Below, in pieces: positions 2,466 through 19,241 of a stretch of 42,568 nucleotides of DNA. Made by a program: the position numbers and the translations under genes. Source of the DNA: a virus. The stretch spans positions 1-42,568 of the IMG/VR virus record IMGVR_UViG_3300034142_000043, one strand, 5' to 3'. The notes under the pieces are model-generated. The model had not been told where the DNA came from, did no database searches, and worked only from the letters and a program-made list of their open reading frames with translations. The first letter of the stretch is position 1, and each line of letters opens with the position of its first letter.

Positions 2466-2784
2466 GCGAAACCCGCTCCAGCTGCATCAATCCGCGTCAC
2501 CGCCCCCTCCCCGGCCCCCTTGGGAAGGGGCAGGGGCGGCCGACTGCATCAAAACCGACCCCAAAAGCCTGCGGGCGAGGCGCGGGGGCAAGCGCGGCGC
2601 GCGGGGTGGAGGCGGCGCCCCCTCCCCCTGCCCGGGCTGAGGTGGTGCGGGAGCCTCCCTGGTGGTGGCGGTGTCGGTCTCATCCGGCCTGCGCGGCGGC
2701 TGTTGCTGTAACCTAGCGGGTTACAGCAACGCGGGATTGACACTAATTCGGGTGCGGAGCGCGAGCTCGCACGTTGAGCCCGCA
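2466..2784. other. Intergenic stretch with GC-rich inverted repeats and an Ogr-type site
   Basis: The first part (2500-2660) is extremely GC-rich, with imperfect complementary tracts (GGCCCCCTTGGG facing GAAGGGGCAGGGGC) that could fold as a terminator-like stem for the upstream gene, though no T-run follows. The second part holds the perfect palindrome at 2702-2730, described separately. I find no gene here. Confidence 0.5.
2702..2730 (+). promoter_or_regulatory. Ogr-type activator site upstream of the 59-aa gene
   Basis: Perfect 12-base arms GTTGCTGTAACC / GGTTACAGCAAC around TAGCG. The inner 19 bases (2707-2725) read TGT-N13-ACA and share TGTAACC with the sites at 5974, 13449 and 19175. 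This is the most symmetric of the four. P2-family Ogr/Delta proteins bind a TGT-N12-ACA dyad upstream of late promoters; the one-base longer spacer here is uniform across all four sites. The next rightward start codon is at 2785. Confidence 0.7.
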
Positions 2785-2964
2785 ATGCGCGAGCGCTATC
2801 GCCTCGAGATATTCGGCCGACCGGCGGGCCCGTGGCGCTCCGATCGTCGAGCAGCGCTCGCCGACGCGGTGAAGTCCGGCGAGGCCGAATACGACACGGA
2901 GCGTCGCCAGCACTTCCTGATGGTCGGAGCGGAGGTCGCCTTTGAGCAGCTCGCCGACGAGTGA
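2785..2964 (+). CDS. 59-residue late-type protein, function unknown
   Basis: Short basic/acidic protein starting MRERYRLEIFG, rich in Arg and Glu, with no membrane segment. ATG 2785 lies 59 bases past the Ogr-type palindrome and has no clear Shine-Dalgarno site. The frame stays open upstream, but the residues there are low-complexity and include the operator, so I prefer this start. It faces the portal gene head-on (portal ends at 3013). Having its own late operator suggests expression with the virion genes; the role is unknown. Confidence 0.6.
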   Translation: MRERYRLEIFGRPAGPWRSDRRAALADAVKSGEAEYDTERRQHFLMVGAEVAFEQLADE

Positions 2965-3012
2965 GCGATCAGCCACGCTGCCCGCAGCGCAAGGTGGGGG
3001 CGGGTGCGCCGG

Positions 3013-4098
3013 CTAGGCCGCCGCGGCGATCGGGCCCCGGTAGGGATCGAAGGACACCGCCTCGGAGCCGAGCCAGTCGTTCAGCTCGAGGAACCTCATC
3101 TCCAGCGGCTCGATCTCGTTCGCGAAGAAGGTTTCGTTAGCCTTGCCGACATCGCCAAAGCCGCCGGAGTTGGTGGGCACCACGCCGAGCAGCTGCGGCG
3201 GCACCCGGTGAGCTGCGAGCATCTCGTCGCGCGAGATGAGCTTGATGCTCATGAACTCATCCTTTGCCGCCACCTCGCTGATCGGGATGATCTGGACGCC
3301 GTCCTTCTTGCCCTTCGGCGCGTGGATGAAGAGATTTTTGAAGTTGCCGACGCCGCGCGCGCCCTTCAGCTGCTCCTTGATCGCATCGGCGTCTTCGTTC
3401 GAGACCGACTCTTCCGAGCAGTAGAAAATGAAGCCAGCATGGCTGCCGTTCAGATAGTAGCGCCGCCGGAAGAGCGTCGCCGCCTCCCCCATCAGCCCCG
3501 CCTGCAGGGCGTGGAAAAACTCCGGCACGCCGTAGATCTCCTGGCTCGGATGCTCCTGCAGCATGTGGAAGACCCGGCCGGGCCCGAACTCGTGCTCCTG
3601 GCGCCACCCGGGGACGAAGAAGAATCGCCCGTCCTCCACGCCGCGGCGGGTGAAGCGCGCCAGGCTGTGCTTCAGGGCGAGCGGCCGCCCGGCGAGATTG
3701 TCGCGCCGTTCGAGGTAGGCGTTGCCGACGGCGAGGAAGTCGAGCGCGAGCTTGCGGAAATCCTCCCGGCCCAGCAACCGCGACGGCCGGAAATGCTTGA
3801 CGAGCAGATTGACCTTGAGCCGGATGCAGCTCGCATGCGGCCCCGGAATGTCGAAGGCCCGCGTCAGTCCGTGCATCGAGACCGGGGGCTCGTACCAGCG
3901 GCCATTATGCCAGGTCTCGCAAAATCCGAGGAGGTCGCGCTTGTCGTGAACCGCCTCGGGCTCGCCGAACGAGAAGGCCTGCACCTTGCCCGTTGCCGCG
4001 GCCGCGGCCACCTCGCCTGTCGAACTCGCGAGGATCTCGCCTTCGATCGTCCTCGCACCGTCGTCGGCGACGCCCGTCATCATGGGCAGCTGGTCCAT
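3013..4098 (-). CDS. Q: Portal protein, P2 gpQ/PBSX family
   Basis: A 361-residue protein (P2 gpQ has 344). It forms the dodecameric ring at the capsid vertex through which DNA enters and to which the tail joins. Seen: N-terminal segment around AFSFGEPEAVHDK; central fold with LALDFLAVGNAYLE; and the family-typical C-terminal block HRVPPQLLGVVP followed by GGFGDVGKA. It is the second gene of a leftward operon after terminase P. Its ATG at 4098 overlaps the last base of the terminase stop, so translation is probably coupled. Transcription should start at the Ogr-type site at 5971-5995. Confidence 0.95.
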   Translation of the reverse strand: MDQLPMMTGVADDGARTIEGEILASSTGEVAAAAATGKVQAFSFGEPEAVHDKRDLLGFCETWHNGRWYEPPVSMHGLTRAFDIPGPHASCIRLKVNLLVKHFRPSRLLGREDFRKLALDFLAVGNAYLERRDNLAGRPLALKHSLARFTRRGVEDGRFFFVPGWRQEHEFGPGRVFHMLQEHPSQEIYGVPEFFHALQAGLMGEAATLFRRRYYLNGSHAGFIFYCSEESVSNEDADAIKEQLKGARGVGNFKNLFIHAPKGKKDGVQIIPISEVAAKDEFMSIKLISRDEMLAAHRVPPQLLGVVPTNSGGFGDVGKANETFFANEIEPLEMRFLELNDWLGSEAVSFDPYRGPIAAAA

Positions 4099-5924
4099 CA
4101 GAATACCTCCACTTTAGCTTTGCGTTCGGTGAGCTCGCCGTCGAGCGGCTCGTTGAAGAGGACGTGCATGATCGCCCAGGCGACGTCCGCGTGGCCCGTC
4201 CCGTCGCTCCGGCTCGCGACATAGGTGACCTGGCGGCCGCTCTTGGTGATCTGGGGCCGGATCGAGACGAAGCTCGCCGTGATATCCTTGTCGCCGGAAT
4301 CATATTCGAGGCGACCGGCGCCGATGACGCTCTTCGCCTTATGGACCATCAGCGCCTTCAGCGGCGCCGAATAGTTGATCGCCCGGGCGAGCGGGAACCG
4401 CTTGACCACCAGCTGATAGACCGCGGCGCCGACGCCGGTCGTGTCGATGCCGATATCGACGACGAAATAGCGCCCCATTTGCTTGAAGATGGCGTGGGCT
4501 TGCTCCTCGAAGCCGCCCTTGAGGCGAAATTTCTCCAGCACCCGGAATTTGCCGCCCTTCACCTCGGGCAAGGCCATCACCACCAAAGCGGCGTCGTCGC
4601 CGTCGGTGCTCTCCTGCGGATCGTAACCGATCGCCACCGGCACCTGGCCGATCGGGCGGAGGCCGTAGGCATCGAAGTCGCGCCACTTGGCGAAACTGTC
4701 CACTCGGCAGCGCTTCATGAACTCGAGCGGGAAGGCCGACTGCGTGTCGTCGACGAACTCGCACATATAGAGGTTGTTGAAGACGTCCGGCGATTTGGAC
4801 CGCCGCAGCCGGTCGAGGTCGAACAGGTCCAGGCCGCCGGCGATCGCGTCGACGATCGTCACCACCTGACGCCAGATGCCGTCGCCGCCGAGGGACCCCT
4901 TCTTCAGCCCCTCAGCGTAAAGGTCGATCTTCGTCCAATCGGCCTTGTCGCGGCCTTCATTGTATTTCTCGCCGGTCCACTTCTTGTGCGCCTGATGGGC
5001 GACAGTCGAAGGCGTGGAGAAGTAAGTCTCCCGGTAGCGATCCTGCGACGCCATGCCGGCGGCGACATCGTCCGTCTTTTCGAAGTCCTGGGCCCAAAAG
5101 CACTCATCATAATAGAAATTGCCGTGCTCGCCTTGGGCAGTGCGAAAATTGGCGCCGAGGAAGAAGATTGTCGGGCGTTCGAGCGGCTTGCCATCCTCGC
5201 CGTCGCCGCGGTCGATGAGGAGGTGCTCGCCCTTCAGCTGCACGCCCGTCACCTGGAAGACGAACTCGATGATATAGCGGCGGAAGATCTCCGCCTGGCG
5301 CCGGGAGGCGGAGAGAAAGATCTGGTTGCGGCCCGTCTCGAGCGCGTCGATCAGCGCCTCGAGCGCGAAATAGTTGGTGGCACCGATCTGGCGGCTCTTC
5401 AGGATGAACCGGGTGCGCTGATTGATGTTCGCCCACCAGGCGCGCTGATAATCGAAGCACCATTCCAGGAAGGCCGCCTTGAGCTCCGCCGCCATCTCGG
5501 CGCTGATCAGGTTCGGCCGCGCCTTCTTCTTCTCGCCTTTGTTGCGGTTTTCGACCTTCGGATTGAGATCGGCCTCGTTGCCGCTGTTGCGGTAGCGCCG
5601 GCACCGCTCGAACCGCTCGAGCTGGCGGCCGAGCAGGTCGATCTCCTTGAAGTCGCCGCCGGTCTTGCTCTCCTTGGCGACGAGCATGTTGTAGCGCGCG
5701 ACGGTCGATTCCTCGGCCGCCCGGATCGAAGGCGCCTCCTGCCATTTCTCCCGTTGCTTCCAGCTCTCGATGGTCGATCGCTTCAGCGGCTTGCCATCGT
5801 TGGTGGCGCCGATGCGGTTCAGTTCGTCCGCGATCTGCGTGACGCCCCAGCCACGCCAATAGAGGCTGCGCGCCTCTCGGCGCACGTCCAGCATCTCGGG
5901 TCTTTCGATCGGGGCGAGTAACAT
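4098..5924 (-). CDS. P: Terminase large subunit (ATPase/nuclease), P2 gpP family
   Basis: A 608-residue protein (P2 gpP 590). It packages DNA into procapsids with the small subunit M. The N-terminus (about 15-70) holds an HTH-like segment with WGVTQIADELNRIG and STIESWKQREKW. The ATPase shows the P2-type Walker A variant LKSRQIGATN near residue 180 and Walker B FYYDECFW near 272. The C-terminal RNase-H-like nuclease shows acidic sites in IGYDPQES and GDDAALVV (about 428-440), then DTTGVG and GHADVAWAIMHVL. First gene of the leftward late operon. The ATG at 5924 lies 49 bases beyond the reverse-oriented Ogr-type site and has no evident ribosome binding site. Confidence 0.95.
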   Translation of the reverse strand: MLLAPIERPEMLDVRREARSLYWRGWGVTQIADELNRIGATNDGKPLKRSTIESWKQREKWQEAPSIRAAEESTVARYNMLVAKESKTGGDFKEIDLLGRQLERFERCRRYRNSGNEADLNPKVENRNKGEKKKARPNLISAEMAAELKAAFLEWCFDYQRAWWANINQRTRFILKSRQIGATNYFALEALIDALETGRNQIFLSASRRQAEIFRRYIIEFVFQVTGVQLKGEHLLIDRGDGEDGKPLERPTIFFLGANFRTAQGEHGNFYYDECFWAQDFEKTDDVAAGMASQDRYRETYFSTPSTVAHQAHKKWTGEKYNEGRDKADWTKIDLYAEGLKKGSLGGDGIWRQVVTIVDAIAGGLDLFDLDRLRRSKSPDVFNNLYMCEFVDDTQSAFPLEFMKRCRVDSFAKWRDFDAYGLRPIGQVPVAIGYDPQESTDGDDAALVVMALPEVKGGKFRVLEKFRLKGGFEEQAHAIFKQMGRYFVVDIGIDTTGVGAAVYQLVVKRFPLARAINYSAPLKALMVHKAKSVIGAGRLEYDSGDKDITASFVSIRPQITKSGRQVTYVASRSDGTGHADVAWAIMHVLFNEPLDGELTERKAKVEVF

Positions 5925-5970
5925 CGCCGGCGACGCTAACCGCGCCCGGCCCCGGCCTACGCCTCACCCT

Positions 5971-5995
5971 TGTTGTATCGGCCACGGTTACAACA
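5971..5995 (-). promoter_or_regulatory. Ogr-type activator site between P and O operons
   Basis: TGTTGT...ACAACA outer dyad; inner 19 bases 5974-5992 fit TGT-N13-ACA. Read on the minus strand it is TGTAACCGTGGCCGATACA, matching the sites at 13449 and 19175 in both half-sites. The orientation and the 49-base distance to the terminase start at 5924 mimic the J and V arrangement, so it most likely drives P-Q leftward. It may also serve O, whose ATG is at 6115. Confidence 0.75.
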
Positions 5996-6041
5996 GCCCC
6001 GAATTGCGCCGCGCCCCGGTTCCGGTCCCTCTTAGGGGCTC

Positions 6042-6084
6042 AGCGACGCGTCGGGACTAAGTCCCCCTGTTCCGGCGCGTCGCT
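6042..6084. promoter_or_regulatory. Nested inverted repeats upstream of gpO
   Basis: AGCGACGCG (6042-6050) is the exact reverse complement of CGCGTCGCT (6076-6084). Inside lies a second palindrome, GGGACT-A-AGTCCC (6053-6065). They sit 30 bases before the start of O, in its expected leader. The role (operator, RNA structure or promoter part) is unknown. Confidence 0.4.
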
Positions 6085-6114
6085 ACCGAATTCAGGACCG
6101 GAGCCGCCGATCTC

Positions 6115-6999
6115 ATGACGAAAATCTCGAAGTTTTTCCGCCTGGCGACCGAAGGCGCCACCTGCGACGGCCGCACGATCTCGCGCCAGGACATCGTCGA
6201 CATGGCGGAGACCTACGACCGCCAGACCTACGGCGCCCGCGTCAACATGGAGCATATTCGCGGCTTTTCCGCCGACCCGCCCTTTTGCGCCTACGGCGAC
6301 GTTGTCGCGGTGAAGACGGAGGAGGTTCAGCTCAACGTCGGCGGCAAGAATGAGAAGCGCCTGGCGCTGCTCGGCCAGGTCGAAGCGCTCGACCCGCTCG
6401 TGACGCTTAGCGCCAAGGGCCAGAAGGTCTACCCCTCGGTCGAGATCAACCCGAACTTCGCCGGCTCCGGCAAGGCATACCTGCAGGGGTTGGCCATCAC
6501 CGACAGCCCCGCCTCGCTCGGCACCGAGATCCTCGCCTTCGCCGCCGGTCTCGGCGACAAGAGCCCGTTCGCGGCCAAGAAGCAGGACAAAGGCAATTTC
6601 TTCAGCGCCACCACCGATGGCGTCATGATCGAGCTCGAGGAAAAGCCGGCGCCGGCGCAGCCGGAAAGCGCCGGGCTGTTCGCGGCCGCGACGGAATTTT
6701 TCAAGCAATTCTCCAGATCCGCCGAGCAACCCGGTGCCGTCCCGCCGGTCGTTCCGCCGGCTCCGGCGAACGACAATGCCGCCCTCGCGCAGCTGAGCGC
6801 CTCGATCGGCGACGGGTTCTCCAAGCTGAGCGCGGCGATGGCCGCCATGTCGACTGAGACCAAGGCCGACCTCGGCAAGCTCCGCGCCGATCACGACGCG
6901 CTGAAGGCGTCGATCGAGAACACGGACGCCGACAAGAGCAAGCGGCCGCCCGCCACCGGCGCCGCCGGCAACGGCAACTACGCCGTCACCGACTTCTAG
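6115..6999 (+). CDS. O: Capsid scaffolding protein with serine protease domain, gpO family
   Basis: A 294-residue protein (P2 gpO 284). It guides procapsid assembly and then matures itself, capsid and portal by proteolysis. The N-terminal domain keeps the P2-type triad in place: D18 in TCDGR, H47 in NMEHIRG and S108 in VYPSVEI. The C-terminal part (about 180-290) is rich in Ala, Pro and charged residues and helical, as expected for the scaffold portion. First gene of the rightward head operon. Its neighbours N and M follow in P2 order. No strong ribosome binding site precedes the ATG. Confidence 0.95.
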   Translation: MTKISKFFRLATEGATCDGRTISRQDIVDMAETYDRQTYGARVNMEHIRGFSADPPFCAYGDVVAVKTEEVQLNVGGKNEKRLALLGQVEALDPLVTLSAKGQKVYPSVEINPNFAGSGKAYLQGLAITDSPASLGTEILAFAAGLGDKSPFAAKKQDKGNFFSATTDGVMIELEEKPAPAQPESAGLFAAATEFFKQFSRSAEQPGAVPPVVPPAPANDNAALAQLSASIGDGFSKLSAAMAAMSTETKADLGKLRADHDALKASIENTDADKSKRPPATGAAGNGNYAVTDF

Positions 7000-7056
7000 G
7001 CGCCGCTTCACCGCACCGCCTGCCCGCCAGCTTCCATCCCGCCGAGGAACGAGAAC

Positions 7057-8088
7057 ATGCTCAACACCACCCGCGTCCACTTCAACTCGCTGCTGTCGCG
7101 CATCGCGGAGCTCAACGGGGTCGACGACGCCACCAAGTCGTTCAGCGTGGAGCCGAGCGTCGAGCAGAAGCTCGAGGCCCGGGTCCAGGAATCGAGCGCC
7201 TTCCTCTCCGAGGTCAATATCTACCCGGTGCCGGAGCTCAAGGGCGAGAAGCTCGGCATGGGCGTCACCTCCACCATCGCCGGCCGCACCGACACCAGCG
7301 GCGCCGGCCGCCGCCAGCCGCGCAGCCCGATGAGCCTCACCGGGCGCGGCTACGACCTGAAGCAAACCGACTTCGACACCTACATCACCTACGCGCAGCT
7401 CGATCTCTGGGCCAAGTTCCCGAACTTCCAGACGATGTTCGGCAACGTCATCGCCCAGGCGATAGCACTCGACCGCATCATGATCGGCTTCAACGGCACC
7501 AGCGCGGCCGCCACCAGCGACCGCGTCGCCAATCCGCTGCTCGAGGACGTCAACAAGGGCTGGCTGCAGTATATCCGCGAAGAGGCGCCCAACCACGTCT
7601 TCAGCGACGGCGCCCATGCCGTCGGCAAGATTCGCGTGGGCGCCGACCCGGCCACGACCGATTACCGGACGCTCGACGCGCTGGTCTATGATGCGGTCCA
7701 CAGCTTCATGCCGACCTGGTCGCGCCAGCGCATGGACCTCGTCGCGATCGTCGGCGGCGGCCTGCTTCACGACAAATACTTCGTCCTGATCAATGAGAAG
7801 CAGGATCCGACCGAGCAGGTCGCGCGCGACATCGTGATGTCGACCCGGCGCATGGGCGGCCGTCAGGCGGCCGAAGTGCCGTACGTGCCCGCCGACACCA
7901 TTCTGGTGACCCCGCTCAAGAACCTTTCCATTTACCATCAGGAGGGCAAGCGCCGCCGCTACATTCAGGAGGAGCCGAACGCCAATCGCATCGCCGACTA
8001 CCAGTCTTCGAACGAAGGCTACGTGGTCGAGGATGTCGATCCTGTCGTGCTGATCGAGAACATCGAACTCGTCGCCGGCGCCGGCTGA
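7057..8088 (+). CDS. N: Major capsid protein, P2 gpN family
   Basis: A 343-residue protein (P2 gpN 357) with the HK97-like fold expected for this family; it builds the icosahedral shell. The start MLNTTRVHFNSLLSRIAELNG and later blocks such as SLTGRGYDLKQTDFDTYI, and the run ending in GYVVEDVDPVVLIE, are typical of the P2 capsid family. The first 20-30 residues are probably removed by gpO during maturation (known for P2, not visible here). GAGGAACGAG precedes the ATG. The next gene, M, overlaps its stop codon. Confidence 0.96.
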   Translation: MLNTTRVHFNSLLSRIAELNGVDDATKSFSVEPSVEQKLEARVQESSAFLSEVNIYPVPELKGEKLGMGVTSTIAGRTDTSGAGRRQPRSPMSLTGRGYDLKQTDFDTYITYAQLDLWAKFPNFQTMFGNVIAQAIALDRIMIGFNGTSAAATSDRVANPLLEDVNKGWLQYIREEAPNHVFSDGAHAVGKIRVGADPATTDYRTLDALVYDAVHSFMPTWSRQRMDLVAIVGGGLLHDKYFVLINEKQDPTEQVARDIVMSTRRMGGRQAAEVPYVPADTILVTPLKNLSIYHQEGKRRRYIQEEPNANRIADYQSSNEGYVVEDVDPVVLIENIELVAGAG

Positions 8089-8846
8089 TGTCGCCCGCCC
8101 AACGCGCCTTCGCCCGGAAGACGGCCGCCCTGGCGGCGGCATCCACGGCGGCGAGCTCCGCGCTCTCCCGGCCGGCTTCCGGCGCCGAGGCGACCGAATA
8201 CGAGCAGCAGCGAGCGCGGCTCGGCGAAGATCTCCGCCGCCTTCGCGAGATTCAATCGATCGAAGCGAAGATCGAGCTGAAGCGGGAACTGCTGCCCGCC
8301 TACGATCCCTGGGTGGGGGGCGTTCTGGACGCCGCGGCCGTCGACGGCGCCCGCGGCGTCCAAGATGATATCCTCGTCCAGATCATGATCTGGCGCATCG
8401 ATGTCGGCGACTTCGCGGGCGCGCTCCCGCTGGTCGAATACGTCCTGCGCTGGAACCTCGCCCTGCCCGAGCGCTTCAACCGCACCGCCGCGACCATGAT
8501 CGCCGAGGAGATTGCGGAAGCAGCGTTGAAGGCGCTCGCGCAGGGCGAGCCTTTCGATCTGCAGCTGCTCACCCGCATCGAAGAGCTCACCGCCGGCCAC
8601 GACATGCACGACCAAGTCAAGGCCAAGCTGATGAAGGCGATGGGGCTTGAATTGGCGCGCCACGCCGCCTCGCTGACCGCCGACGCGGACGGGCCCGCCG
8701 GCGCCAAGCGCGCGGCCGTGGAAGGCGCGATCGTGAAGTTCAGGCGCGCTCTTCAGCTCAATCCGAAGGCGGGCGTCAAAAAGGATCTCGAACGCCTGGA
8801 GCGCGAGCAAGTGAAGCTCGCCGCCGGGCCCGCCGAGGAAAGCTGA
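8088..8846 (+). CDS. M: Terminase small subunit (endonuclease), P2 gpM family
   Basis: A 252-residue protein (P2 gpM 247). It partners terminase P in recognising and cutting cos ends. Seen: an N-terminal helical region with a long charged segment (LGEDLRRLREIQSIEAKIELKR split around residues 45-65), then a conserved middle with LPAYDPWVGGVLDA and DILVQIMIWRIDVGDF. The C-terminus is helical. The ATG at 8088 overlaps the TGA of the capsid gene, indicating coupled translation. Position after O and N is exactly as in P2. Confidence 0.92.
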   Translation: MSPAQRAFARKTAALAAASTAASSALSRPASGAEATEYEQQRARLGEDLRRLREIQSIEAKIELKRELLPAYDPWVGGVLDAAAVDGARGVQDDILVQIMIWRIDVGDFAGALPLVEYVLRWNLALPERFNRTAATMIAEEIAEAALKALAQGEPFDLQLLTRIEELTAGHDMHDQVKAKLMKAMGLELARHAASLTADADGPAGAKRAAVEGAIVKFRRALQLNPKAGVKKDLERLEREQVKLAAGPAEES

Positions 8847-8857
8847 AAGGAAGCGCC

Positions 8858-9235
8858 ATGATCAACCTCTCCCGACTCTGCCTCATCTCCGCCCTCGCCT
8901 GCGCAGCCCTCGTTTCGGCCTGCGCCGGCGCCACTCGCCCGGAGGCCGGCGGATCTCCGCCCGTCGAAGCCGCCAGCTCGGCCGAGCGCGTGATCGGCAC
9001 GGCCGAGGCGGCGATCGCCACCGCGGACCTCGCCTTGCTCGCCGCCGAAGCCGTTGGCGCGATCAGTCCCGGCCGGGCGATCGTGTTCCGCGCGATCCTC
9101 GATCGCGCCGGCGGCTTCGTCGGCAAGGCGCGAGCCGCCTTTACCTCCGGCGATCGCCTCCGCGCAGCCAAGCTGCTCCGTCAGGCATCCGACTTGGTTG
9201 CGCAGGTCAGGGCGGGCGCGATCGCCCCCGGCTGA
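8858..9235 (+). CDS. Small predicted lipoprotein between M and L, function unknown
   Basis: A 125-residue protein preceded by AAAGGAAG. The N-terminus is a signal peptide with a lipobox (ALVSAC), so cysteine 22 should be lipidated and the protein anchored in the inner or outer membrane facing the periplasm. The rest is Ala-rich and predicted helical (TAEAAIATADLALLAAEAVG). P2 has no gene here, so it is an insertion in the head operon. It could act in lysis as an outer-membrane spanin-like part, or in surface modification or exclusion. It lacks the proline-rich stretch of classical Rz1 and lies far from the lysis genes, so no function is assigned. Confidence 0.75.
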   Translation: MINLSRLCLISALACAALVSACAGATRPEAGGSPPVEAASSAERVIGTAEAAIATADLALLAAEAVGAISPGRAIVFRAILDRAGGFVGKARAAFTSGDRLRAAKLLRQASDLVAQVRAGAIAPG

Positions 9236-9241
9236 AGAATT

Positions 9242-9260
9242 CCCGCCGGCATCCGGCGGG
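9242..9260 (+). terminator. Hairpin after the lipoprotein gene
   Basis: Perfect 8-bp stem CCCGCCGG/CCGGCGGG with loop CAT, seven bases past the lipoprotein stop. No T-run follows, so it is a weak terminator or an mRNA-end stabiliser rather than a classic intrinsic terminator. The bases up to 9410 contain no gene. Confidence 0.4.
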
Positions 9261-9410
9261 CCATAGCTCGCCCCGCGGCGCTCGGGGGGCGGGAGTCGAT
9301 CGAGGACCGGGCTAGTTTTCTGTTCCCGCGCCCGAAGGTCGCTCCCCCACCCCCCGTTAAATCAACGGAATCGACCCCGCTTCGGTCCGCAAGAAGGAAG
9401 GAGGCCGCTC

Positions 9411-9620
9411 ATGCCCGACGACATCGATGTCCGCCGCCTCCGCCTGCAGCCGGGAGACGTCGTCGTCGTCTCCTTCGCCGAGGCCGTCGATTATGACGAC
9501 GCCCGGGGCACGCTCGAACGCCTTAGGGCCCACATTGCCGAGCACGGCCCGGCGAGAACGATGGTGCTCTTCGTGAACGGCGGCTCCGTCTCGGTCGTTC
9601 CCGGCGCCGAGGCGGCTTGA
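9411..9620 (+). CDS. 69-residue acidic late protein, function unknown
   Basis: A short protein beginning MPDDIDVRRLRLQPGD, with alternating hydrophobic segments (DVVVVSF, TMVLFVNGG) that suggest a compact alpha/beta fold. It is preceded by a very good ribosome binding site (GGAAGGAGG). It ends one base before the ATG of gpL, so it belongs to the head operon. No transmembrane segment or known motif. Short proteins in this place are common in sphingomonad P2-like prophages (recollection). Role not assignable. Confidence 0.7.
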   Translation: MPDDIDVRRLRLQPGDVVVVSFAEAVDYDDARGTLERLRAHIAEHGPARTMVLFVNGGSVSVVPGAEAA

Positions 9621-9621
9621 G

Positions 9622-10113
9622 ATGGCGGGCTTCGTCTCTTGCCCCTCCACCGCGCCCGCCGACCCTGAGGCGCCGGAGGCCGACACCGTCGCCGGCGACG
9701 CCTTCTATCCCGGCGTCAGCCTTACCGAGGCTCGCTCCTCGCTCCGCATCCCAACGGCCGTTTCGGACATCCGCCTGCGCGATGCGCTGCGCGGGGGGAT
9801 GATCAGCACCAGGCGCGAGCTGCGCAAGTGGAAGGCCGGCCACGTCGCCGCCGGCAGAGTGCGCCTCGCCGATGTCGATGACGAGGAGGTGGACGGCCAG
9901 AGCGCCGCGGAGCTGCTCTACCGCCGCGCCGTGTTCGCCTATGCCGGCGCCGAGCTATCCGAGACACACCACGACATCAGCGCCTCGGGTGACGGCAAGG
10001 GCAAGGACCGCACGGAGGAGGGAATTCTCTCGGCCGACGAGTTTCGGCGCAACGCCACCCACGCGATCCGCGACATCCTCGGCACCACCCGAACCACGGT
10101 AGAACTCATCTGA
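9622..10113 (+). CDS. L: Head completion/stabilisation protein, P2 gpL family
   Basis: A 163-residue protein (P2 gpL 169). It joins the filled head and completes the connector for tail attachment. Family-like features: an N-terminal segment after a loop (GDAFYPGVSLTEARSSLRIP), then DIRLRDALRGGM and RRELRKWKAG, and a C-terminal helical ending RRNATHAIRDILG. It starts just after the 69-aa gene, and its stop overlaps the ATG of gene X, matching the P2 order M-L-X. Confidence 0.9.
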   Translation: MAGFVSCPSTAPADPEAPEADTVAGDAFYPGVSLTEARSSLRIPTAVSDIRLRDALRGGMISTRRELRKWKAGHVAAGRVRLADVDDEEVDGQSAAELLYRRAVFAYAGAELSETHHDISASGDGKGKDRTEEGILSADEFRRNATHAIRDILGTTRTTVELI

Positions 10114-10334: not shown

Positions 10335-10338
10335 TTTC

Positions 10339-11785: not shown

Positions 11786-12263
11786 CCTACGAGCGGCGAT
11801 AACCGCCGCCTGCCCCGATCTCCGGCGCGACCCCGAGAAGCTCGCATTGTTCGTCGACAAGGGCAGGATTGCGACCAGGCACGGGGCCCCGCTCGCTTTC
11901 GAGTACCGCTACCAGCTGCTCGCCATTCTCACCGACTTCCCTGCCGATCAGCCGAACGCGCTGATGCTGGCCGTCATCCTATGGCTCCGGGTCCATCAGC
12001 CGGAGCTAATCCTCAACCACGGCACCGGAAACGAGGCGTTCACCTTCGACTGCGTGGTGATCGACGACAAGACGGTGGATCTGGAAATTCGGCTGGCGGA
12101 GCTCAGCGAGGCAGTCAAGGTGACGCCTCGGGCGGGCGGCGGCCACGACTTCGAGTTCGTGCCGGAGCCGAGCCTTGACGAGGCTTTCCCCGGCGTCCCC
12201 GAGGATGCTTTGCTTCAGGAGATCCTGTCCGGGGGCGAGCCGCTCTTTCCCCCGAGCGGATGA
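11769..12263 (+). CDS. R: Tail completion protein R, P2 gpR family
   Basis: A 164-residue protein (P2 gpR 155). It finishes the head-proximal end of the tail. Seen: start MLKPDSLRAAITAACPDL; hallmark FEYRYQLLAILTDFPADQP; then LMLAVILWLRVHQPELI and the beta-rich stretch FTFDCVVIDDKTVDLEI, all characteristic of the family. It overlaps the preceding small gene and its stop overlaps the start of S (ATGA), so the block is translationally coupled. Confidence 0.93.
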   Translation: MLKPDSLRAAITAACPDLRRDPEKLALFVDKGRIATRHGAPLAFEYRYQLLAILTDFPADQPNALMLAVILWLRVHQPELILNHGTGNEAFTFDCVVIDDKTVDLEIRLAELSEAVKVTPRAGGGHDFEFVPEPSLDEAFPGVPEDALLQEILSGGEPLFPPSG

Positions 12264-12757
12264 TGTCGGCCGAGGTCCAGGGACTCGAGGAGCTCGACAC
12301 CTTTCTAGGTGAATTTGTAAGCCGGCTTGAACCGGGTGAGCGCAAGAAGCTCGCCGATCGCGTCGGCACCTTCGTTCGCCAGGCCAACGCTCGCCGCCTG
12401 AAGGGGAACGTCGATCCTGATGGGGAGCCGTTCGAGCCGCGCAAGAAGCAGCGCAGCCACCGCCTCCGCGAGAAGGCCACGCGGCTAAAGCGGCGCGTCA
12501 AGACGAAGAAGATGTTCCTCCGCGCCGGCGGCGCCGGCTATCTTCGGCGGGTCGCAACCGCGGAGATGGCGACGGTTGGCTATACCGGCGCCATGGCGCG
12601 CATCATGAACGTCCACCACCGCGGCCTCCGCGACAACGTCACCCGCGACCCGGCGTCGCCCACGGCGGAATATCCCGTGCGGCGGGTGCTCGGCTTGCCG
12701 GACGAGGACCGGGCGCACGTGCTGGAGCTGCTCGTCGATCATCTGGAGACCACTTGA
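12260..12757 (+). CDS. S: Tail completion/virion morphogenesis protein S, P2 gpS family
   Basis: A 165-residue protein (P2 gpS 150). The family completes the tail terminator so that heads and tails can join. Seen: ARRLKGNVDPDGEPFEPRKK, a typical block for phage virion morphogenesis proteins, then basic KRRVKTKKMF. The C-terminus has FGLP-like text as VLGLPDEDRAHVLELL. It overlaps the R stop; either of two adjacent ATG codons could be used. In P2 the next gene is V; here a cargo gene and the J block come first. Confidence 0.93.
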   Translation: MMSAEVQGLEELDTFLGEFVSRLEPGERKKLADRVGTFVRQANARRLKGNVDPDGEPFEPRKKQRSHRLREKATRLKRRVKTKKMFLRAGGAGYLRRVATAEMATVGYTGAMARIMNVHHRGLRDNVTRDPASPTAEYPVRRVLGLPDEDRAHVLELLVDHLETT

Positions 12758-12773
12758 TTCCCGCCTGAGCCTA

Positions 12774-13424
12774 GTGTTCGCGTGGGGAATGCCTGAAGCC
12801 GTAGATATGCCACTGGCCGACTTTCCGATTGATCATCCTCGCATGGGGGATGTTCTGGCAATGCTCGGTTGCAGCCCGGCGCTGCCGGTGCCGCGGACTT
12901 CAGCCGCGCCGGCGCTCACCTGCTACTGGAACGCGCGCGACTACGCTCAAGCCCGAGGCGGTACGCTCGAACTCGGCTGGATGCTAGAATGGCTCCCCAA
13001 CGCCTACGTTCAGGCGATGCACCATGGCGTCGCCGCCCTGCCGGACGGCAGCCGTATCGATGTCACAGCTCCTCAAAGTGGGCCCGCGATTCCGGGGACC
13101 ACGACTTTCGTTCCTGACGCGAGAATACCCTTTGACCCTCGCTGGCCGATGAACATCGACAATCGATACCTGCGCCTCGTTGAAGATGAAGATGTCAAAG
13201 GCGCGATCCGGGCCTATCTGGTCAATAACCGCCTAGAGCGAGAGTTCTGGCGCAAGGTGCGTCGGCAACCGGGAGCGAGCTGGACACCCCAAGGAGGCCC
13301 TCGCAACGCGGAAAATCCGTATATCCCGAACAAGGATCGCAAGCTGTTGGCGTCCAGCTTCGAGAAGCTTTGCCTGCACCGTAGGCGGCTCCTAGAGCGC
13401 TACTGCTCCCCCTCCGGCAAATAA
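12774..13424 (+). CDS. Uncharacterised cargo gene between S and J
   Basis: 216 residues from GTG 12774, or 211 from ATG 12789; neither has a clear ribosome binding site. No signal peptide or membrane helix. The middle reads LTCYWNARDYAQARGG then LELGWMLEWLPNAYVQAMHHG and PDGSRIDVT. This W-E-x-P...H-H/A-V...DG-x-x-x-D-x-T pattern recalls a family of small uncharacterised bacterial proteins (recollection, unverified). The C-terminal half is basic (LEREFWRKVRRQ). P2 has no counterpart, the codon use looks slightly less GC-biased than its neighbours, and it sits between two late modules, the usual place for acquired genes. No function assigned. Confidence 0.65.
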   Translation: MFAWGMPEAVDMPLADFPIDHPRMGDVLAMLGCSPALPVPRTSAAPALTCYWNARDYAQARGGTLELGWMLEWLPNAYVQAMHHGVAALPDGSRIDVTAPQSGPAIPGTTTFVPDARIPFDPRWPMNIDNRYLRLVEDEDVKGAIRAYLVNNRLEREFWRKVRRQPGASWTPQGGPRNAENPYIPNKDRKLLASSFEKLCLHRRRLLERYCSPSGK

Positions 13425-13445
13425 TCCCGCCGCGCGGGGCTGCTT

Positions 13446-13470
13446 TGTTGTAACCGCCGCCGATACAACA
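13446..13470 (+). promoter_or_regulatory. Ogr-type activator site upstream of J
   Basis: Outer dyad TGTTGT...ACAACA; inner 13449-13467 is TGTAACCGCCGCCGATACA, fitting TGT-N13-ACA. It differs from the V site by one base (G for T after AACC). The J start codon is 38 bases downstream (13506), or 47 if ATG 13515 is used. It presumably drives the J-I-H-fibre block. Confidence 0.78.
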
Positions 13471-13505
13471 GCGCCCGGTGGCGGGGCGACCCCGCCGCCG
13501 CCGAC

Positions 13506-14417
13506 ATGACGGCGATGCCCGATTTCTCCGCCAGCTCCACCGCAATCGACCTGTCGCGCCTGCCGGCGCCGGCGGTCGTGCAGATCCTGACTTTCGAGCA
13601 GATCTTCGACGGCATGGCCGCGGATATGGTGGCGCGCCAGCCCGGCTTCGATCCGACCATCCAATCGGACCCGGCGGTGAAGGTCCTGCAGGTCTCCGCC
13701 TATCGCGAGATGCTGCTCCGCCAAGACTTCAACGACCGCGCCCGCGGCCTCATGCTCGCTTATGCAACGGGCACCGATCTCGACCACCTCGCCGCCAACT
13801 TCCTCGTCGTGCGCCTGGTGCTCGATGCCGGCGATCCGGACAACGGCATAGCGCCGACGCTCGAATCGGACGACGAGCTGCGCGCCCGCGTCGTGCTGGC
13901 GCCCGAGGCCTTCTCCGTCGCCGGCCCCGAGCTCGCCTATATCTCGAAGGCTCGTGCCGCCTCGGCCGACGTCCGCGACGCCAGCGTTTCCAGCCCCGCC
14001 CCGGGCGAGGTCGTGATCACCATTCTCTCGCGCAACGGTAACGGCGCGGCGCCCCTGGAGCTGCGCCAGGCGGTCTCGCGCGTCGTCGGCGATCGCGCGG
14101 TGCGGCCGCTCGGCTCTTTCGTCCAGGTCCAGTCGGCCGAGATCGTCGAATATCAGGTGACGGCCGCGCTGACCCTGTTCGAAGGACCGGATTCCGATCT
14201 CATCCTGGAAGCGGCCCGGGCAAGCGTCGCCGCCTATGTCGCCCGCGCCTGGCGGCTCAGCCGCGACATCACGCTGGTGGCGCTCAGCGCCGCCCTGTGC
14301 GTCGAGGGCGTTCAGGACGTGATGCTAACCTCGCCCGCGGCCAACCTTCCGATCGGCAGCACTCAGGCGCCGTTCTGCACCGCCATCAACGTGACCTTCG
14401 CCGGCTATGCCAGCTAG
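13506..14417 (+). CDS. J: Baseplate assembly protein J, P2 gpJ family
   Basis: A 303-residue protein (P2 gpJ 302). It forms baseplate wedges with W and I. Seen: YREMLLRQDFNDRARGLMLAY split by the family block ATGTDLDHLAANF, then LAPEAFSVAGPELAYI, and in the C-terminal half DITLVALSAALCVEGVQDV. The second in-frame ATG at 13515 would make the distance from the Ogr-type site equal to that of P and V, so it may be the true start. The stop overlaps I by 11 bases. Confidence 0.95.
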   Translation: MTAMPDFSASSTAIDLSRLPAPAVVQILTFEQIFDGMAADMVARQPGFDPTIQSDPAVKVLQVSAYREMLLRQDFNDRARGLMLAYATGTDLDHLAANFLVVRLVLDAGDPDNGIAPTLESDDELRARVVLAPEAFSVAGPELAYISKARAASADVRDASVSSPAPGEVVITILSRNGNGAAPLELRQAVSRVVGDRAVRPLGSFVQVQSAEIVEYQVTAALTLFEGPDSDLILEAARASVAAYVARAWRLSRDITLVALSAALCVEGVQDVMLTSPAANLPIGSTQAPFCTAINVTFAGYAS

Positions 14418-15054
14418 CCGCAAAAGCCTTCTGCCGCCCAACGCGAAGACGCTCGAGCGCGCGCTCGAGGCGACGGCCGCGCGCATCGAGGATGTGCCCG
14501 TTCCGGTCGACCGGCTCTGGAACCCGGACACTTGCCCGGTGCCTCTGCTCCCATGGCTGGCCTGGGCCTGGTCGATCGACCGATGGAAAGCCCGCTGGTC
14601 GATCGCCGAGAAGCGGGCGGCCGTTAAAACCGCCCTCGAGCTGCAGTGGATGAAGGGCACCCCCGCCTCGGTCGAGGCGGTCCTCGCGTCGTTCGACGAG
14701 CTGCTCCGGGTGGTCGAGTGGTTCGAAACGACCCCCCGCGGCGCGCCCCACACTTTCGAGATCGTGCTTCCGCTCGGCGCCGCCGGCGGCGATCGAGCCA
14801 CCGCGGCCTTCGCCGAGGAGATCGTCCGCGACGTTACCCGGTTCAAGCCCGCCCACGTTCACTTCACCCTGGTCCAGTCGCTCCGCTGCGCCGGCGATCT
14901 CCGCGTCGCGGGCGCCGCCCATGCCGTCGGCTTCAGCCGCATCGATGCGGCCGCGGCGCACGACCCATCCCCAACCTGGGCGACCTACCTCCAAACTGAG
15001 GATGGCGAGCCCTTCGAGACCGAGGACGGTCAGTTCCTCGAGGAGGACGCATGA
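14407..15054 (+). CDS. I: Tail protein I, P2 gpI family
   Basis: A 215-residue protein (P2 gpI 176). A baseplate component. Seen: start MPASRKSLLPPNAKTLERAL; the hallmark region CPVPLLPWLAWAWSIDRW; then KGTPASVEAVLASF and FKPAHVHFTL, all typical of the family. The extra length is at the C-terminus, an acidic stretch (TEDGEPFETEDGQFLEEDA). It overlaps J and its stop overlaps the H start. Confidence 0.94.
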   Translation: MPASRKSLLPPNAKTLERALEATAARIEDVPVPVDRLWNPDTCPVPLLPWLAWAWSIDRWKARWSIAEKRAAVKTALELQWMKGTPASVEAVLASFDELLRVVEWFETTPRGAPHTFEIVLPLGAAGGDRATAAFAEEIVRDVTRFKPAHVHFTLVQSLRCAGDLRVAGAAHAVGFSRIDAAAAHDPSPTWATYLQTEDGEPFETEDGQFLEEDA

Positions 15055-16364
15055 GCGAGCCGCTCATTCTGACTATCACCGACGCGGGGCGCGCCGCCTT
15101 GCTCGACGCCGAGGCCGGCGGCACCGCGGCCGTCGTCATTGCCGAGGTCGGCCTGGCCGCCAACGACTTCGTCGACGCGCCGACGCTCACCGCCGTTCCC
15201 GGCGAGTTCAAGCGCATCGGCTCGGTCGCCGGCCTGCCCATCAACGACACCACGATCCACCTCATGGCGCGCGATACCAGCGCGGACGTCTACAGCGTCC
15301 GCGGCTTCGGCCTCTATCTCGACACGGGCGCCCTGTTCGCCGTCTATTCGCAGCCGGCCCTGATCTTCCAGAAGGCCGGGGCGACCATGTTTCTGCTGGC
15401 GCTCGACGTCGTGCTTCAGGCCGGCCAGGCCGAGCTCATCGAATTCGGCGACGTCCAGCTGACCTTTCCGCCCGCGACGGAAACGGTGCAGGGCGTCGCC
15501 CGCATCGCCCCGCAAGCCAAGGTCGACGCCGGCACCGATGACGCGGACTTCGTCACGCCGCTGAAGCTCGCTGCGCGCCTCGCCAACCTCCTCGCCCTCT
15601 ACATTCCGCTCGCGCAGCGCGCGGCCGCAAACGGCGTCGCCACCCTCGGCGCCGACGGCAAGATCCCGACGGCGCAGCTGCCCGCGCTGGCGATCACCGA
15701 AACCTTCGTCATCGGCAGCCAGGCCGCGCAGCTCGCGCTGGCGGCCCAGCTCGGCGATGTCGCCGTGCGGACCGATCTCAGCAAGAGCTTCATCCTCGGC
15801 GCGGAGCCGGCGAACGTCCTCGCCAACTGGATCGAGATCCTCAACCCCGGCGCGCCGGTGCAAAGCGTCAACGCCCAGGTCGGCAACGTCAACCTCACGG
15901 CCGCCCAGGTCGGCGCCGCGGCTGCGGTGCGCCAGATCCTCTCCGCCGGCCTTGCCTCCGGCGGCGGCGACTTGTCGGCCGACCGCACGATCAACGTCCC
16001 CAAGGCGAGCGTGGCCGACGCTCATGCCGGCACCAGCGACGTCGCCGCGCTCACGCCCCTGGGGCTTTGGAGCTTTCCGGGCTCGAACGGCGCGAATGGC
16101 TATGCTCAGATCCCGGGGACGTCGCTTATCCTGCAATGGGGCTCGGTCAACGTGCCGGCTGACAATCTCGCCACCGTCACCTTCCCGCTCGCCTTCCCGA
16201 GCACCTGCTATCAGGTCCTCATCAGCCCCAACGGCGACACCGACGACGGCGATTCCTCGGAAGAGCGGGCCTGGGTCGGCTCCCGGAACACCGCGCAATT
16301 CCTCCTGATGACGGGCGGCAGTCACCTCGCCGTCAATTACTCCTGGTGGGCGATCGGCCGATGA
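15051..16364 (+). CDS. H: Tail fibre protein, P2 gpH-like
   Basis: A 437-residue protein (P2 gpH 669). The N-terminal ~180 residues are the baseplate-attachment domain of P2-like fibres: LILTITDAGRAALLDAE, then LTAVPGEFKRIGSVAGL and VYSVRGFGLYLDTGALF. A short shaft follows (PLAQRAAANGVATLGADGKIP is the start of it, near 190-210). The C-terminus ends in a beta-rich tip: LILQWGSVNV, ATVTFPLAFPSTC and AVNYSWWAIGR, like the tip domains of gp53-type fibres. It probably determines host binding together with the SGNH-bearing protein downstream. ATGA overlaps join it to I and to the next gene. Confidence 0.92.
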   Translation: MSEPLILTITDAGRAALLDAEAGGTAAVVIAEVGLAANDFVDAPTLTAVPGEFKRIGSVAGLPINDTTIHLMARDTSADVYSVRGFGLYLDTGALFAVYSQPALIFQKAGATMFLLALDVVLQAGQAELIEFGDVQLTFPPATETVQGVARIAPQAKVDAGTDDADFVTPLKLAARLANLLALYIPLAQRAAANGVATLGADGKIPTAQLPALAITETFVIGSQAAQLALAAQLGDVAVRTDLSKSFILGAEPANVLANWIEILNPGAPVQSVNAQVGNVNLTAAQVGAAAAVRQILSAGLASGGGDLSADRTINVPKASVADAHAGTSDVAALTPLGLWSFPGSNGANGYAQIPGTSLILQWGSVNVPADNLATVTFPLAFPSTCYQVLISPNGDTDDGDSSEERAWVGSRNTAQFLLMTGGSHLAVNYSWWAIGR

Positions 16365-16846
16365 AGATGATCCTTTGGAGCGCCGCCACCGGCGGCTTCT
16401 ACCGGCGCGACCTTCACCGGGCCGATACCATCCCCGCCGATGCGGTCGAGATAACGGCCGCTCGCCACCGCGAGCTGCTCGAGGCGCAGTCCGCCGGCGC
16501 GCCGATCGTCCCCGGCGCCGACGGCCGCCCCACGACTCGGCGGCCGCGGTCGCGCGTTGCCGAACTCCGCGACCGCGCCGTTCGAGCCGCGAAGCGAGAG
16601 GCGGGCCGTCGCATCCTCGCCATCGCGCCGCTCTGGCGCCAGGCCAACGACAACGCGGCGATCGCCCTCGCGGCGCTTCAGCTCACCGCCGGCGGCGCTA
16701 CCGTGGACTTCCTCCCGGCCGTGGAGCGCCGGCGCGCCGTCGACCGGGTCCGCGCCGCCTCCAACGCGCTCGAGATGGCGATCGGCGCCATGACTCGCGC
16801 CGAGCTCGCCGTCTTCAACCCCGCCGCCGAAGTGCATTGGAGCTGA
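16361..16846 (+). CDS. Tail fibre assembly-like protein
   Basis: 161 residues from ATG 16361, which overlaps the H stop; an in-frame ATG 15 bases earlier lies inside H. The N-terminus (MILWSAATGGFYRRDLH, then AVEITAARHRELLEAQ and GADGRP) matches the start of many tail fibre assembly proteins, whose first domain contacts the fibre. The C-terminal half is basic and helical and differs from P2 gpG. Role: chaperone for fibre folding or trimerisation, inferred from the N-terminus and the position behind H. Confidence 0.75.
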   Translation: MKMILWSAATGGFYRRDLHRADTIPADAVEITAARHRELLEAQSAGAPIVPGADGRPTTRRPRSRVAELRDRAVRAAKREAGRRILAIAPLWRQANDNAAIALAALQLTAGGATVDFLPAVERRRAVDRVRAASNALEMAIGAMTRAELAVFNPAAEVHWS

Positions 16847-16849
16847 TCG

Positions 16850-18781
16850 ATGGCCAAAACCTCCAACCTCAATCCCGCAGGGGCGGTCACCGGCGATGAG
16901 GACCTCGCCGTTAATCAAAACGGTTCGAAGCGGATGAAGCTGTCGGCCGTGCTCGCGGCCGCGCGCGCGCCGATCGACCCGCAGCTGGCCGCTCACCGCG
17001 CCGAGCTCGACGGCATCGCCGACGCGGCCCTTCACACCTTCTACATCACCCGGACCTTGCCCTACGCGCTCGCGATCAGCGCCAGCCTCATCGTCGCAGG
17101 CGGCGTCGCGGTGCTGCCGCCGGCGCCGCCAACCAATATCCCGGCGCCAATGGTCGGCGTCGCCGGCAACCGCGCCATCTTCGATCGCGACGAGGCCGCG
17201 GGCCTCCGCTGGTTCCTCGACCGCCAATATCCGAGCGAGGCCGCGTTCCTGAAGGCGACGGGCGGCGTGAAGACGGGCGAGGCGATCGTCTACGGCCCGT
17301 TCGAAGAGCCCGCCCAGGTCAACGCCGTCACCAACAACGCGCTGGCCGACACAATAGGCTGGAACGGCCTCAATGGATCGGTCCTCGCGCCTGGCGCCGG
17401 TGCCGAGGCCGGCTCGCTGAAGATCACCGCTCCCGGCAACGCCGCCGCCGGCGCCTATTTCACGATCACGGCCTCGCAATTCGAATGTTACCGCTTCTCG
17501 GTCGACGTGAAGCGCGGCACCGGTGCCGTGGCGATCCGCGCCGCCGCCGGCATCACCACGACGCTCGCCTACGAATCGAGCTCCAACGCCACGGCCGCCT
17601 ACCAGGAAAAGACGGTCTACGCCGCGGCCGTTCATAACCCGCTGCTCGTCGGGGTCGAGATCCCCGGCACGCCGGCGGGCGATTATTACCTGCGCAACCC
17701 GAGGGCGTTCAAAATCCGCCCGCTCAAGGGGTGGGTCCAGAACGACTATACCTCGATCCACCGGATGCCGCCCGCCGGCGCTCACGCGGGCGAGAAGGTG
17801 CTCTGGCAGGCCGACGCGGACACCGACCGCGATCGGCACCGCATCGTCCGCGACGGCGCCACCGGCAAGGTCTTCATCGTCAGCACCGGCGACGGACTCG
17901 AATATGCCCGCATCGATCTCGGCGTCGCCGCTGACAATGAGATCATCGCCGTCGCCGTGCGCTGGAAAACGCAGGGCATCACCGGGAGCCTGAACGGCGG
18001 CCCGTGGAAGACGCAGGCGGGCTCGCGCCGCGTCGCCGGCGTCTTCAAGATGCGGGAGGGCATTGGCCTCACCGTCGGCAACGCCTACGGCGCGCTCCCG
18101 GGGCGCACCGCCATCATCACCCCGGGCGAGCCCGACGACGCCCTGCAGCTGCGCTCCGCCGAGATCCGCGGCCAGCTCCCCTGGCACGGCATCGGCGATT
18201 CCGGTCTCGCCGGCGCGCCGGTCGGCGCCGGCTATGTCGCCGGCGTTTCCAACGGCGCCGTCGTCAGCCTCGCTGCCGACCTCCGCATCGCCACGGGGCG
18301 GCCTTTGATCAGCAACGCCGTCGGCGGCTCGATCCGCGCCGACCAGCGCGCCGTCCTGTTCGCGCGGCCGCATCTTCGGCACCTTCCCACGCTCTTCGCC
18401 AATTACGGCCCGGGCGGGGAGGCCGGCTTTGACGAGCAGATGGCGCTCATCGACGAGCAGATCGCCTGGCTCGGCCATAATCACTGGCTCTGGGCGCGCG
18501 GCATCGCAGTCGACAACGCGCCGGCGGACCTGGTCGCGCTCCAGGTGCAGCTCATGAACGCCGTTATCGCCAAATATGGGGCGGTTCACGTCTGGGATTG
18601 GCTCCCGATCATGGTCGCCCGATCGAGCGGCAGCCCGGCCGACGAGGCGGCGATCGCCGCCGGCAAGCCGCCGTCCTCGATCCTGCCCGACACGACCCAC
18701 TTTGAGCAGGGCACGTCCACCGCCCTCGCGGTCGACGGCGCGCCTCGCATGAGCGCCGTTCTGGCGCTGCCCTACCAGTGA
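16850..18781 (+). CDS. Large tail protein with C-terminal SGNH-hydrolase-like domain
   Basis: A 643-residue protein. The start MAKTSNLNPAGAVTGDEDLAVNQNG resembles short N-terminal baseplate-binding segments of tail spikes. The middle (about 180-430) is beta-rich and repetitive in Gly/Ala/Thr, with jelly-roll-like carbohydrate-binding features. From about 440 a hydrolase fold is suggested: GIGDSG (S451 as nucleophile), a Gly block near 480-490, NYGPG (N518), and DTTHF with D614 and H617. This is the order of SGNH/GDSL esterases, which remove acetyl groups from surface polysaccharides. It probably acts at the virion tip on the host capsule or LPS. Block III (GxND) is degenerate, so activity is not certain. 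No counterpart in P2. Confidence 0.78.
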   Translation: MAKTSNLNPAGAVTGDEDLAVNQNGSKRMKLSAVLAAARAPIDPQLAAHRAELDGIADAALHTFYITRTLPYALAISASLIVAGGVAVLPPAPPTNIPAPMVGVAGNRAIFDRDEAAGLRWFLDRQYPSEAAFLKATGGVKTGEAIVYGPFEEPAQVNAVTNNALADTIGWNGLNGSVLAPGAGAEAGSLKITAPGNAAAGAYFTITASQFECYRFSVDVKRGTGAVAIRAAAGITTTLAYESSSNATAAYQEKTVYAAAVHNPLLVGVEIPGTPAGDYYLRNPRAFKIRPLKGWVQNDYTSIHRMPPAGAHAGEKVLWQADADTDRDRHRIVRDGATGKVFIVSTGDGLEYARIDLGVAADNEIIAVAVRWKTQGITGSLNGGPWKTQAGSRRVAGVFKMREGIGLTVGNAYGALPGRTAIITPGEPDDALQLRSAEIRGQLPWHGIGDSGLAGAPVGAGYVAGVSNGAVVSLAADLRIATGRPLISNAVGGSIRADQRAVLFARPHLRHLPTLFANYGPGGEAGFDEQMALIDEQIAWLGHNHWLWARGIAVDNAPADLVALQVQLMNAVIAKYGAVHVWDWLPIMVARSSGSPADEAAIAAGKPPSSILPDTTHFEQGTSTALAVDGAPRMSAVLALPYQ

Positions 18782-18818
18782 AGGTTGGGCTCAGGAGCCT
18801 CCTAAGGTGGTAATGTCG

Positions 18819-19055
18819 CTAAGGCTGCTGATCTTCAGGGTTTGCAGCATCAAGCAGATCGCGATCGGTGGGCGTACCCCCACCCAATTTCATAGCCACA
18901 GTTTTGGGATCCAGCGTTGATAACAGCGCATCGCCCGCGGTGAGCGTAATCTCGGCATGCGTTGCCCGGCCGGGGACCTTCACTCCTACGACGCTCACGA
19001 CATGAATGGGATTGACCCACGCTGAGCCACCGGACGTCTTAATTTCGATGAGCAT
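18819..19055 (-). CDS. Small antisense-oriented protein in the tail region, function unknown
   Basis: 78 residues from ATG 19055, chosen because GGAG lies six bases upstream; another ATG 18 bases earlier lacks this. The sequence begins MLIEIKTSGGSAWVNPIHVV and continues with VVGVKVPG and AEITLTAGD, a compact beta-rich protein. It stands alone against the direction of the surrounding late genes. That is typical of independently transcribed cargo genes expressed from the lysogen. No recognised domain beyond a vague similarity to small 'WVNPxHV' proteins. Its promoter should lie in 19056-19170; I cannot identify it. Confidence 0.65.
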   Translation of the reverse strand: MLIEIKTSGGSAWVNPIHVVSVVGVKVPGRATHAEITLTAGDALLSTLDPKTVAMKLGGGTPTDRDLLDAANPEDQQP

Positions 19056-19171
19056 GTAAATCTCCGCAGCCATGCGCCACCGGGGCGCGAACCGGCGGAT
19101 GCGCCACCGACTCCGGCGGCGTCCAGCGGCCCCACCCGATGTGTGAACATTTCACGTGGCCCTCCCCGCGC

Positions 19172-19196
19172 TGTTGTAACCTCCGCCGATACAACA
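19172..19196 (+). promoter_or_regulatory. Ogr-type activator site upstream of V
   Basis: Outer dyad TGTTGT...ACAACA; inner 19175-19193 is TGTAACCTCCGCCGATACA, fitting TGT-N13-ACA. The V start at 19242 is 48 bases downstream, close to the 49 bases seen at P. It probably drives V-W and the whole tail block through D, since I find no other such site up to 26225. Confidence 0.78.
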
Positions 19197-19241
19197 TCGG
19201 CGGGGGGACGGCTCGCGCTGGATTGCCGCACGGTGCGGGCG

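Follow-up and report, generated by a model that had tools for sequence, protein, structure and literature searches.

Fixed spacing between putative Ogr sites and start codons suggests leaderless late mRNAs in a P2-type phage

Introduction

Which regulator switches on the virion genes of a P2-type phage, and where do the messages of these genes begin? This question is raised by the IMG/VR virus record IMGVR_UViG_3300034142_000043, whose 42,568 nucleotides (positions 1 to 42,568, hereafter the window) hold a P2-type phage with four inverted repeats (dyads) of the form TGT-N13-ACA. An original prediction for this DNA had assigned the dyads to the regulon of the activator Ogr, named a 59-aa gene, P, J and V as its targets, and regarded the spacer, one base longer than in P2, as a co-evolved variant. 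Based on the window and more than 100 relatives, we consider it probable that Ogr acting at these dyads would start P, J and V as leaderless or nearly leaderless mRNAs, and O as an mRNA with a leader.

Results

All four dyads were recovered where they had been predicted, each with a 13-base spacer and with TGTAACC in common (Table 1), and can be described as an extended TGYTGTAACC type. The pattern TGTAACC-N4..8-TACA, a search of the kind that the original prediction had proposed, occurs at exactly these four places in the window and in none of 100 shuffles. The bare TGT-N13-ACA motif alone is not significant (four found vs a shuffle mean of 1.6, with at least four in 7 of 100 shuffles), so that significance rests on the common TGTAACC and the longer arms. 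TGT-N12-ACA, the consensus quoted for P2 (PMC3931495), was not found in the window, and neither was any further strong copy of the extended site, including at the S24 repressor gene. The four sites are located solely at operon heads, upstream of P/O and of other late operons, as known for activators of the Ogr/B type in the P2 family. In addition, the window encodes an Ogr of its own, whose cysteines, read in the sequence as C-PH-C-22-C-4-C, follow the published Ogr pattern CX2CX22CX4C (PMC3931495). Because of this position, the presence of the phage's own Ogr, the family-wide conservation described below and the lack of another strong copy in the window, the dyads most likely represent binding sites of this Ogr, which would switch on the late (virion) genes. 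The regulon as originally proposed is thus supported, and so is its partition into P(Q), J and V operons, for which a PP', PO', PJ' and PV' partition has been published in the Stenotrophomonas phage Smp131 (PMC3931495).

The dyad centre lies 59 bp upstream of the ATG of P, 58 bp upstream of that of V and 57 bp upstream of that of J, the latter measured to ATG 13515. The range of 38-59 bases given previously is a distance from dyad edge to ATG and had relied on ATG 13506 of J (48 bp from the centre). This start was rejected, the upstream ATG within GACATG being out of frame in several relatives. Among the relatives, distances were determined without reference to any motif, by scoring every dyad with 8-bp arms and at least 7 matches relative to an ATG chosen by homology. 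Dyads centred 55-59 bp before the ATG were found for 48 of 98 P, 49 of 134 V and 32 of 113 J genes, against a background of about one per 1-bp bin, and the control genes showed no peak (O 6/115, N 4/116, M 1/75, L 3/89, Q 0/39). Phages without TTGT..ACAA have other dyads at the same distance, even with entirely different half-sites: TGTCGT-N13-ACGACA is centred at 59 bp, CATTTGG..CCAAATG (TTTGG..CCAAA) at 57.5-58.5 bp before P and 55.5 bp before V, and the distance is likewise kept by GGTTAG..CTAACC, CATATGG..CCATATG, TTGTAGAA..TTCTACAA, GGTTGGAA..TTCCAACC and ATGGAGAG..CTCTCCAT. By our method, KS14, KL3 and Acica yielded no dyad that was convincing.

Two side observations concern the same distance. 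In loci of Desulfovibrio type (L160, L163, L165, L166), the dyad before P is TTCCGATT..AATCGGAA or a close variant of it; its centre lies 56 bp from the ATG picked by homology, and it provides one more unrelated half-site at this position. P of Pseudomonas phage Dobby (L324) is annotated as starting within the predicted promoter, at 36 bp from the centre of the dyad, and an in-frame ATG is found at 57 bp; the P start of Dobby is likely mis-annotated.

Shine-Dalgarno-like motifs precede only 4% of P, 4% of V and 12% of J genes, in contrast to 66% of O, 76% of N, 73% of M and 79% of Q (range over O, N, M, L and Q, 56-79%). They are also scarce before I (15%) and W (18%), which we put down to overlap with the preceding gene (translational coupling). 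A hexamer YANNNT, a -10 element in form, is located 6-8 nt before the ATG in 60 of 92 P and 82 of 126 V genes; these totals pool genes that have a recognised dyad (P 26/42, V 37/48) with genes that lack one (P 34/50, V 45/78). At control genes, 0-8 of 32-135 carry it at this position, and a handful would be expected from shuffled sequence. The last hexamer base lies 48-50.5 bp from the dyad centre (51.5 in one case), a distance that is constant for spacers N10-N15; at P, J and V of the window, the -10-like hexamer ends 49-50 bp from the centre, implying a predicted start at ~56. Transcription usually begins 7 nt after a -10 element. Adding this gap to the observed hexamer ends gives a predicted start ~56 bp from the centre, which coincides with the ATG or is no more than ~3 nt away from it; P, J and V would thus be transcribed as leaderless mRNAs. 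The combination of a missing Shine-Dalgarno motif and a -10 at 6-8 nt was found for P and V, and in part for J, where GACATG replaces YANNNT before the ATG in 12 of 103 genes, a gene-specific -10 for which we have no explanation.

Site 2 also faces the divergent O (ATG 6115) at 132 bp from its centre and, occupying the same P/O gap as the P2 activator site, should drive O too. The original promoter list is supported for P, J and V, and had missed this shared pO at site 5974 as well as the fixed start-codon distance. Since the distance from dyad centre to the ATG of O is large and variable (85 to 163 bp in relatives), and since O carries the Shine-Dalgarno-like motif at the frequency given above, its mRNA is predicted to have a conventional leader that includes a ribosome site. 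Within this predicted leader, a strong hairpin was noted at 6040-6090 (AGCGACGCG...CGCGTCGCT; -36 kcal/mol for 6039-6114), and the O leaders of L005 and L011 hold similar inverted repeats with changed bases; this hairpin may act as a structure of the leader or belong to a cos/packaging region.

A survey of TTGT..ACAA dyads before P, V or J in the fetched relatives revealed spacers of N11 (Rahnella), N12 (enterobacterial phages), N13 (the commonest class, found in most) and N14 (several sphingomonad phages, Acinetobacter), and a tree of 97 P (terminase) proteins requires a minimum of nine switches. Of the 26 loci in which two or more genes were scored, 25 have one spacer throughout, and the spacer is also uniform across the two to four sites on each of eight contigs of full or nearly full length. 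This uniformity fits sites matched to the phage's own Ogr, and to this extent agrees with the notion of a co-evolved variant; an alignment of Ogr proteins by spacer class displayed no simple difference by eye, and no residue was tied to spacer length. The sole mixed phage observed, L117 (Croceicoccus hydrothermalis), has an N13 site before J and an N14 site before P, and offers a natural way to learn whether a single Ogr tolerates both spacers.

The one-base difference to P2 is real and is not special to this phage. A 13-base spacer as a novelty was rejected, as TGTTGT-(X)13-ACAACA has been reported before four late operons of the Ralstonia phages phiRSA1 and phiRSY1, in which no sigma-70-type promoter was recognised and an ogr homologue is present (PMC5694545). 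Considering N11-N14 in the relatives and the published N13 of phiRSY1, N12 is not a family-wide requirement.

The gene order of the window is Q, P (minus strand), O, N, M, L, R, S, J, I and tail fibre, followed by V, W, sheath, FII, E, tape measure, U and an ORF at the place of D, and then by S24 repressor, Ogr, Toprim primase, cytosine methylase and serine recombinase. The position of ogr differs from P2, where it follows D; as it lies here within the early region, a link between late activation and transcription of the early region is probable. Over P, the closest cellular relatives are Sphingomonadales prophages (Sphingosinicella 76%, Croceicoccus 74-76%), and the host is probably a sphingomonad. 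Adjoining the serine recombinase at the record end, an ORF with RTX calcium-binding repeats (41440-42561, minus strand; PF00353, E 2e-29) is a host gene or an accessory gene.

Table 1. Putative regulatory sites and genes of the window; distances are from dyad centre to ATG unless stated otherwise.
Feature	Coordinates	Strand	Description
Site 1	2703..2729		Perfect 27-bp inverted repeat TTGCTGTAACC-TAGCG-GGTTACAGCAA; TGT-N13-ACA at 2707-2725
59-aa ORF	2785..2964	+	Downstream of site 1, ATG at 69 bp
Q, portal protein	3013..4098	-	Second gene of P operon
P, terminase large subunit	4098..5924	-	Predicted leaderless start, 59 bp
-10-like TAGCGT	5933..5938	-	8 nt before ATG of P
Site 2	5971..5995		TGTTGTA...TACAACA; shared putative Ogr site of divergent P and O promoters
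O, scaffold/protease	6115..6999	+	First gene of O operon; leader expected, 132 bp
Site 3	13446..13470	+	TGTTGTA...TACAACA; putative Ogr site, J operon
-10-like CGACAT	13502..13507	+	7 nt before J ATG 13515
J, baseplate protein	13515..14417	+	Predicted leaderless start, 57 bp
Site 4	19172..19196	+	TGTTGTA...TACAACA; putative Ogr site, V operon
-10-like CACGGT	19229..19234	+	7 nt before ATG of V
V, baseplate assembly/spike	19242..19826	+	Predicted leaderless start, 58 bp
S24-type repressor	27562-28251
Ogr/Delta zinc-finger activator	29862..30200	+	PF04606, E 3.8e-17 / 3.2e-15; CX2CX22CX4C; directly before primase gene

Discussion

In the mechanism that we propose, Ogr bound at a dyad centred ~55 bp upstream of the start would recruit host RNA polymerase to a weak -10, and transcription of P, J and V would begin at or within ~3 nt of the ATG. 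The divergent O operon would also be driven from site 2, with an ordinary leader and ribosome site on its mRNA. Selection would fix the distance from dyad centre to -10, while spacing and sequence of the half-sites may drift between lineages, presumably along with the resident Ogr.

The arrangement resembles that of known relatives. In the P2 record, an activator site at 3057-3087 is common to pO and pP, whose starts (3127 and 3016) lie ~55 bp either way, and the same arrangement is found in 186. With P2 (PP, PO, PV, PF; Ogr) and 186 (B), the window shares a site common to divergent P and O and a phage-encoded C4 zinc finger, and the dyad ~55 bp upstream of the start in those phages has a predicted counterpart here. 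It differs from P2 in the spacer (quoted as 12, here 13) and in the promoters, which head V and F in P2 and J and V here. For V of P2, pV has been mapped and the start is annotated at the ATG (10308), and by our own reading a TTGT-N11-ACAA dyad is centred 57 bp upstream of that ATG with CAATCT 7 nt before it; a leaderless V of P2 is therefore already known. Both phiRSA1/phiRSY1, with their dyads before late operons and ogr homologue, and Smp131, with its P, O, J, V partition and CX2CX22CX4C Ogr, are close in design. The half-site TGTAACC, in contrast to phiRSA1/phiRSY1, is a feature of this phage and its near relatives, and Smp131 is reported with TGT-N12-ACA (PMC3931495) rather than N13. As no such dyads were found in NC_023588 at the coordinates of that paper, Smp131 was not used for distances.

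Several points weigh against the proposed mechanism. P of P2 and 186 has a leader of ~23 nt, unlike the P (and J) predicted here, so that not every P is leaderless. At J, the YANNNT hexamer is missing, and in gamma-proteobacterial phages with V-W-J order this gene has no site of its own. The ATGs were assigned from homology; an alternative start in the same frame, located between centre+40 and the assigned ATG, is present for 16 of 48 V genes, 8 of 32 J genes and 7 of 42 P genes. The relatives are not independent and the collections are biased, the mixed spacers of L117 depart from one spacer per phage, and the ATG of the 59-aa gene falls outside 55-59 bp. For this phage, Ogr binding, start sites and leaderless translation are inferred from sequence.

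Site 1 with the 59-aa gene is the weakest of the four cases. That this site alone is an unrelated palindrome, leaving a regulon of three sites and four promoters (P, O, J, V), is a possibility we regard as doubtful. Its outer half-site is TGCTGT instead of TGTTGT, its distance to the ATG is 69 bp, and the 59-aa ORF is almost without relatives, having no Pfam or PHROG match and one distant relative among the fetched loci (L284, 34%, E 1.7e-4). It nevertheless has TGTAACC and the N13 spacer in common with the other three sites, and extra sites occur in relatives 55-58 bp before small accessory genes (98 aa in G008, 79 aa in G005, 78 aa in G014), to which the 59-aa ORF, as an accessory gene on the regulon, may correspond.

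An Ogr regulon with ordinary leaders, in which transcription starts further upstream or other start codons are used and the missing Shine-Dalgarno motifs reflect a GC-rich alphaproteobacterial habit, appears unlikely to us. Many alphaproteobacterial genes indeed lack a strong Shine-Dalgarno motif, and alternative in-frame starts exist in a minority. However, such motifs do precede other genes of these phages (O, N, M, L and Q), the -10-like hexamer is found at 6-8 nt only before P and V, and pV of P2 is annotated as starting at the ATG. Least probable are operators of a different regulator, such as the S24-type repressor encoded in the window, that stand at operon heads incidentally: like a repressor operator, site 1 forms a perfect inverted repeat and is closely followed by TTGACA, but the sites share position and P/O arrangement with the activator site of P2 and 186, this position is kept across many distant relatives, and the repressor gene has no copy of the site.

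Compared with the literature, the fixed 55-59 bp from dyad centre to ATG in P, J and V across lineages, together with the -10/Shine-Dalgarno pattern, looks new; no relevant report of leaderless starts at Ogr late promoters, or of leaderless P and J in most relatives, was found in the searchable literature, subscription journals being outside this search. Extended to most P2-like phages, our reading would mean that the late activator dictates leaderless terminase and baseplate mRNAs from a centre at 55-59 bp, with half-site sequence and spacing changing with the resident Ogr. This would give orthogonal, mutually insulated activator-site pairs and possibly a late switch to leaderless translation, a generalization for which we see the arguments about evenly balanced. 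As a consequence, late promoters of P2-like phages would be findable from geometry alone where the motif is unknown, and start codons of P, J and V, e.g., Dobby P, could be annotated correctly. The reading also makes a testable claim on the translation of virion genes late in infection, and the natural series of activators differing in site sequence and spacing would be useful for learning how Ogr reads DNA.
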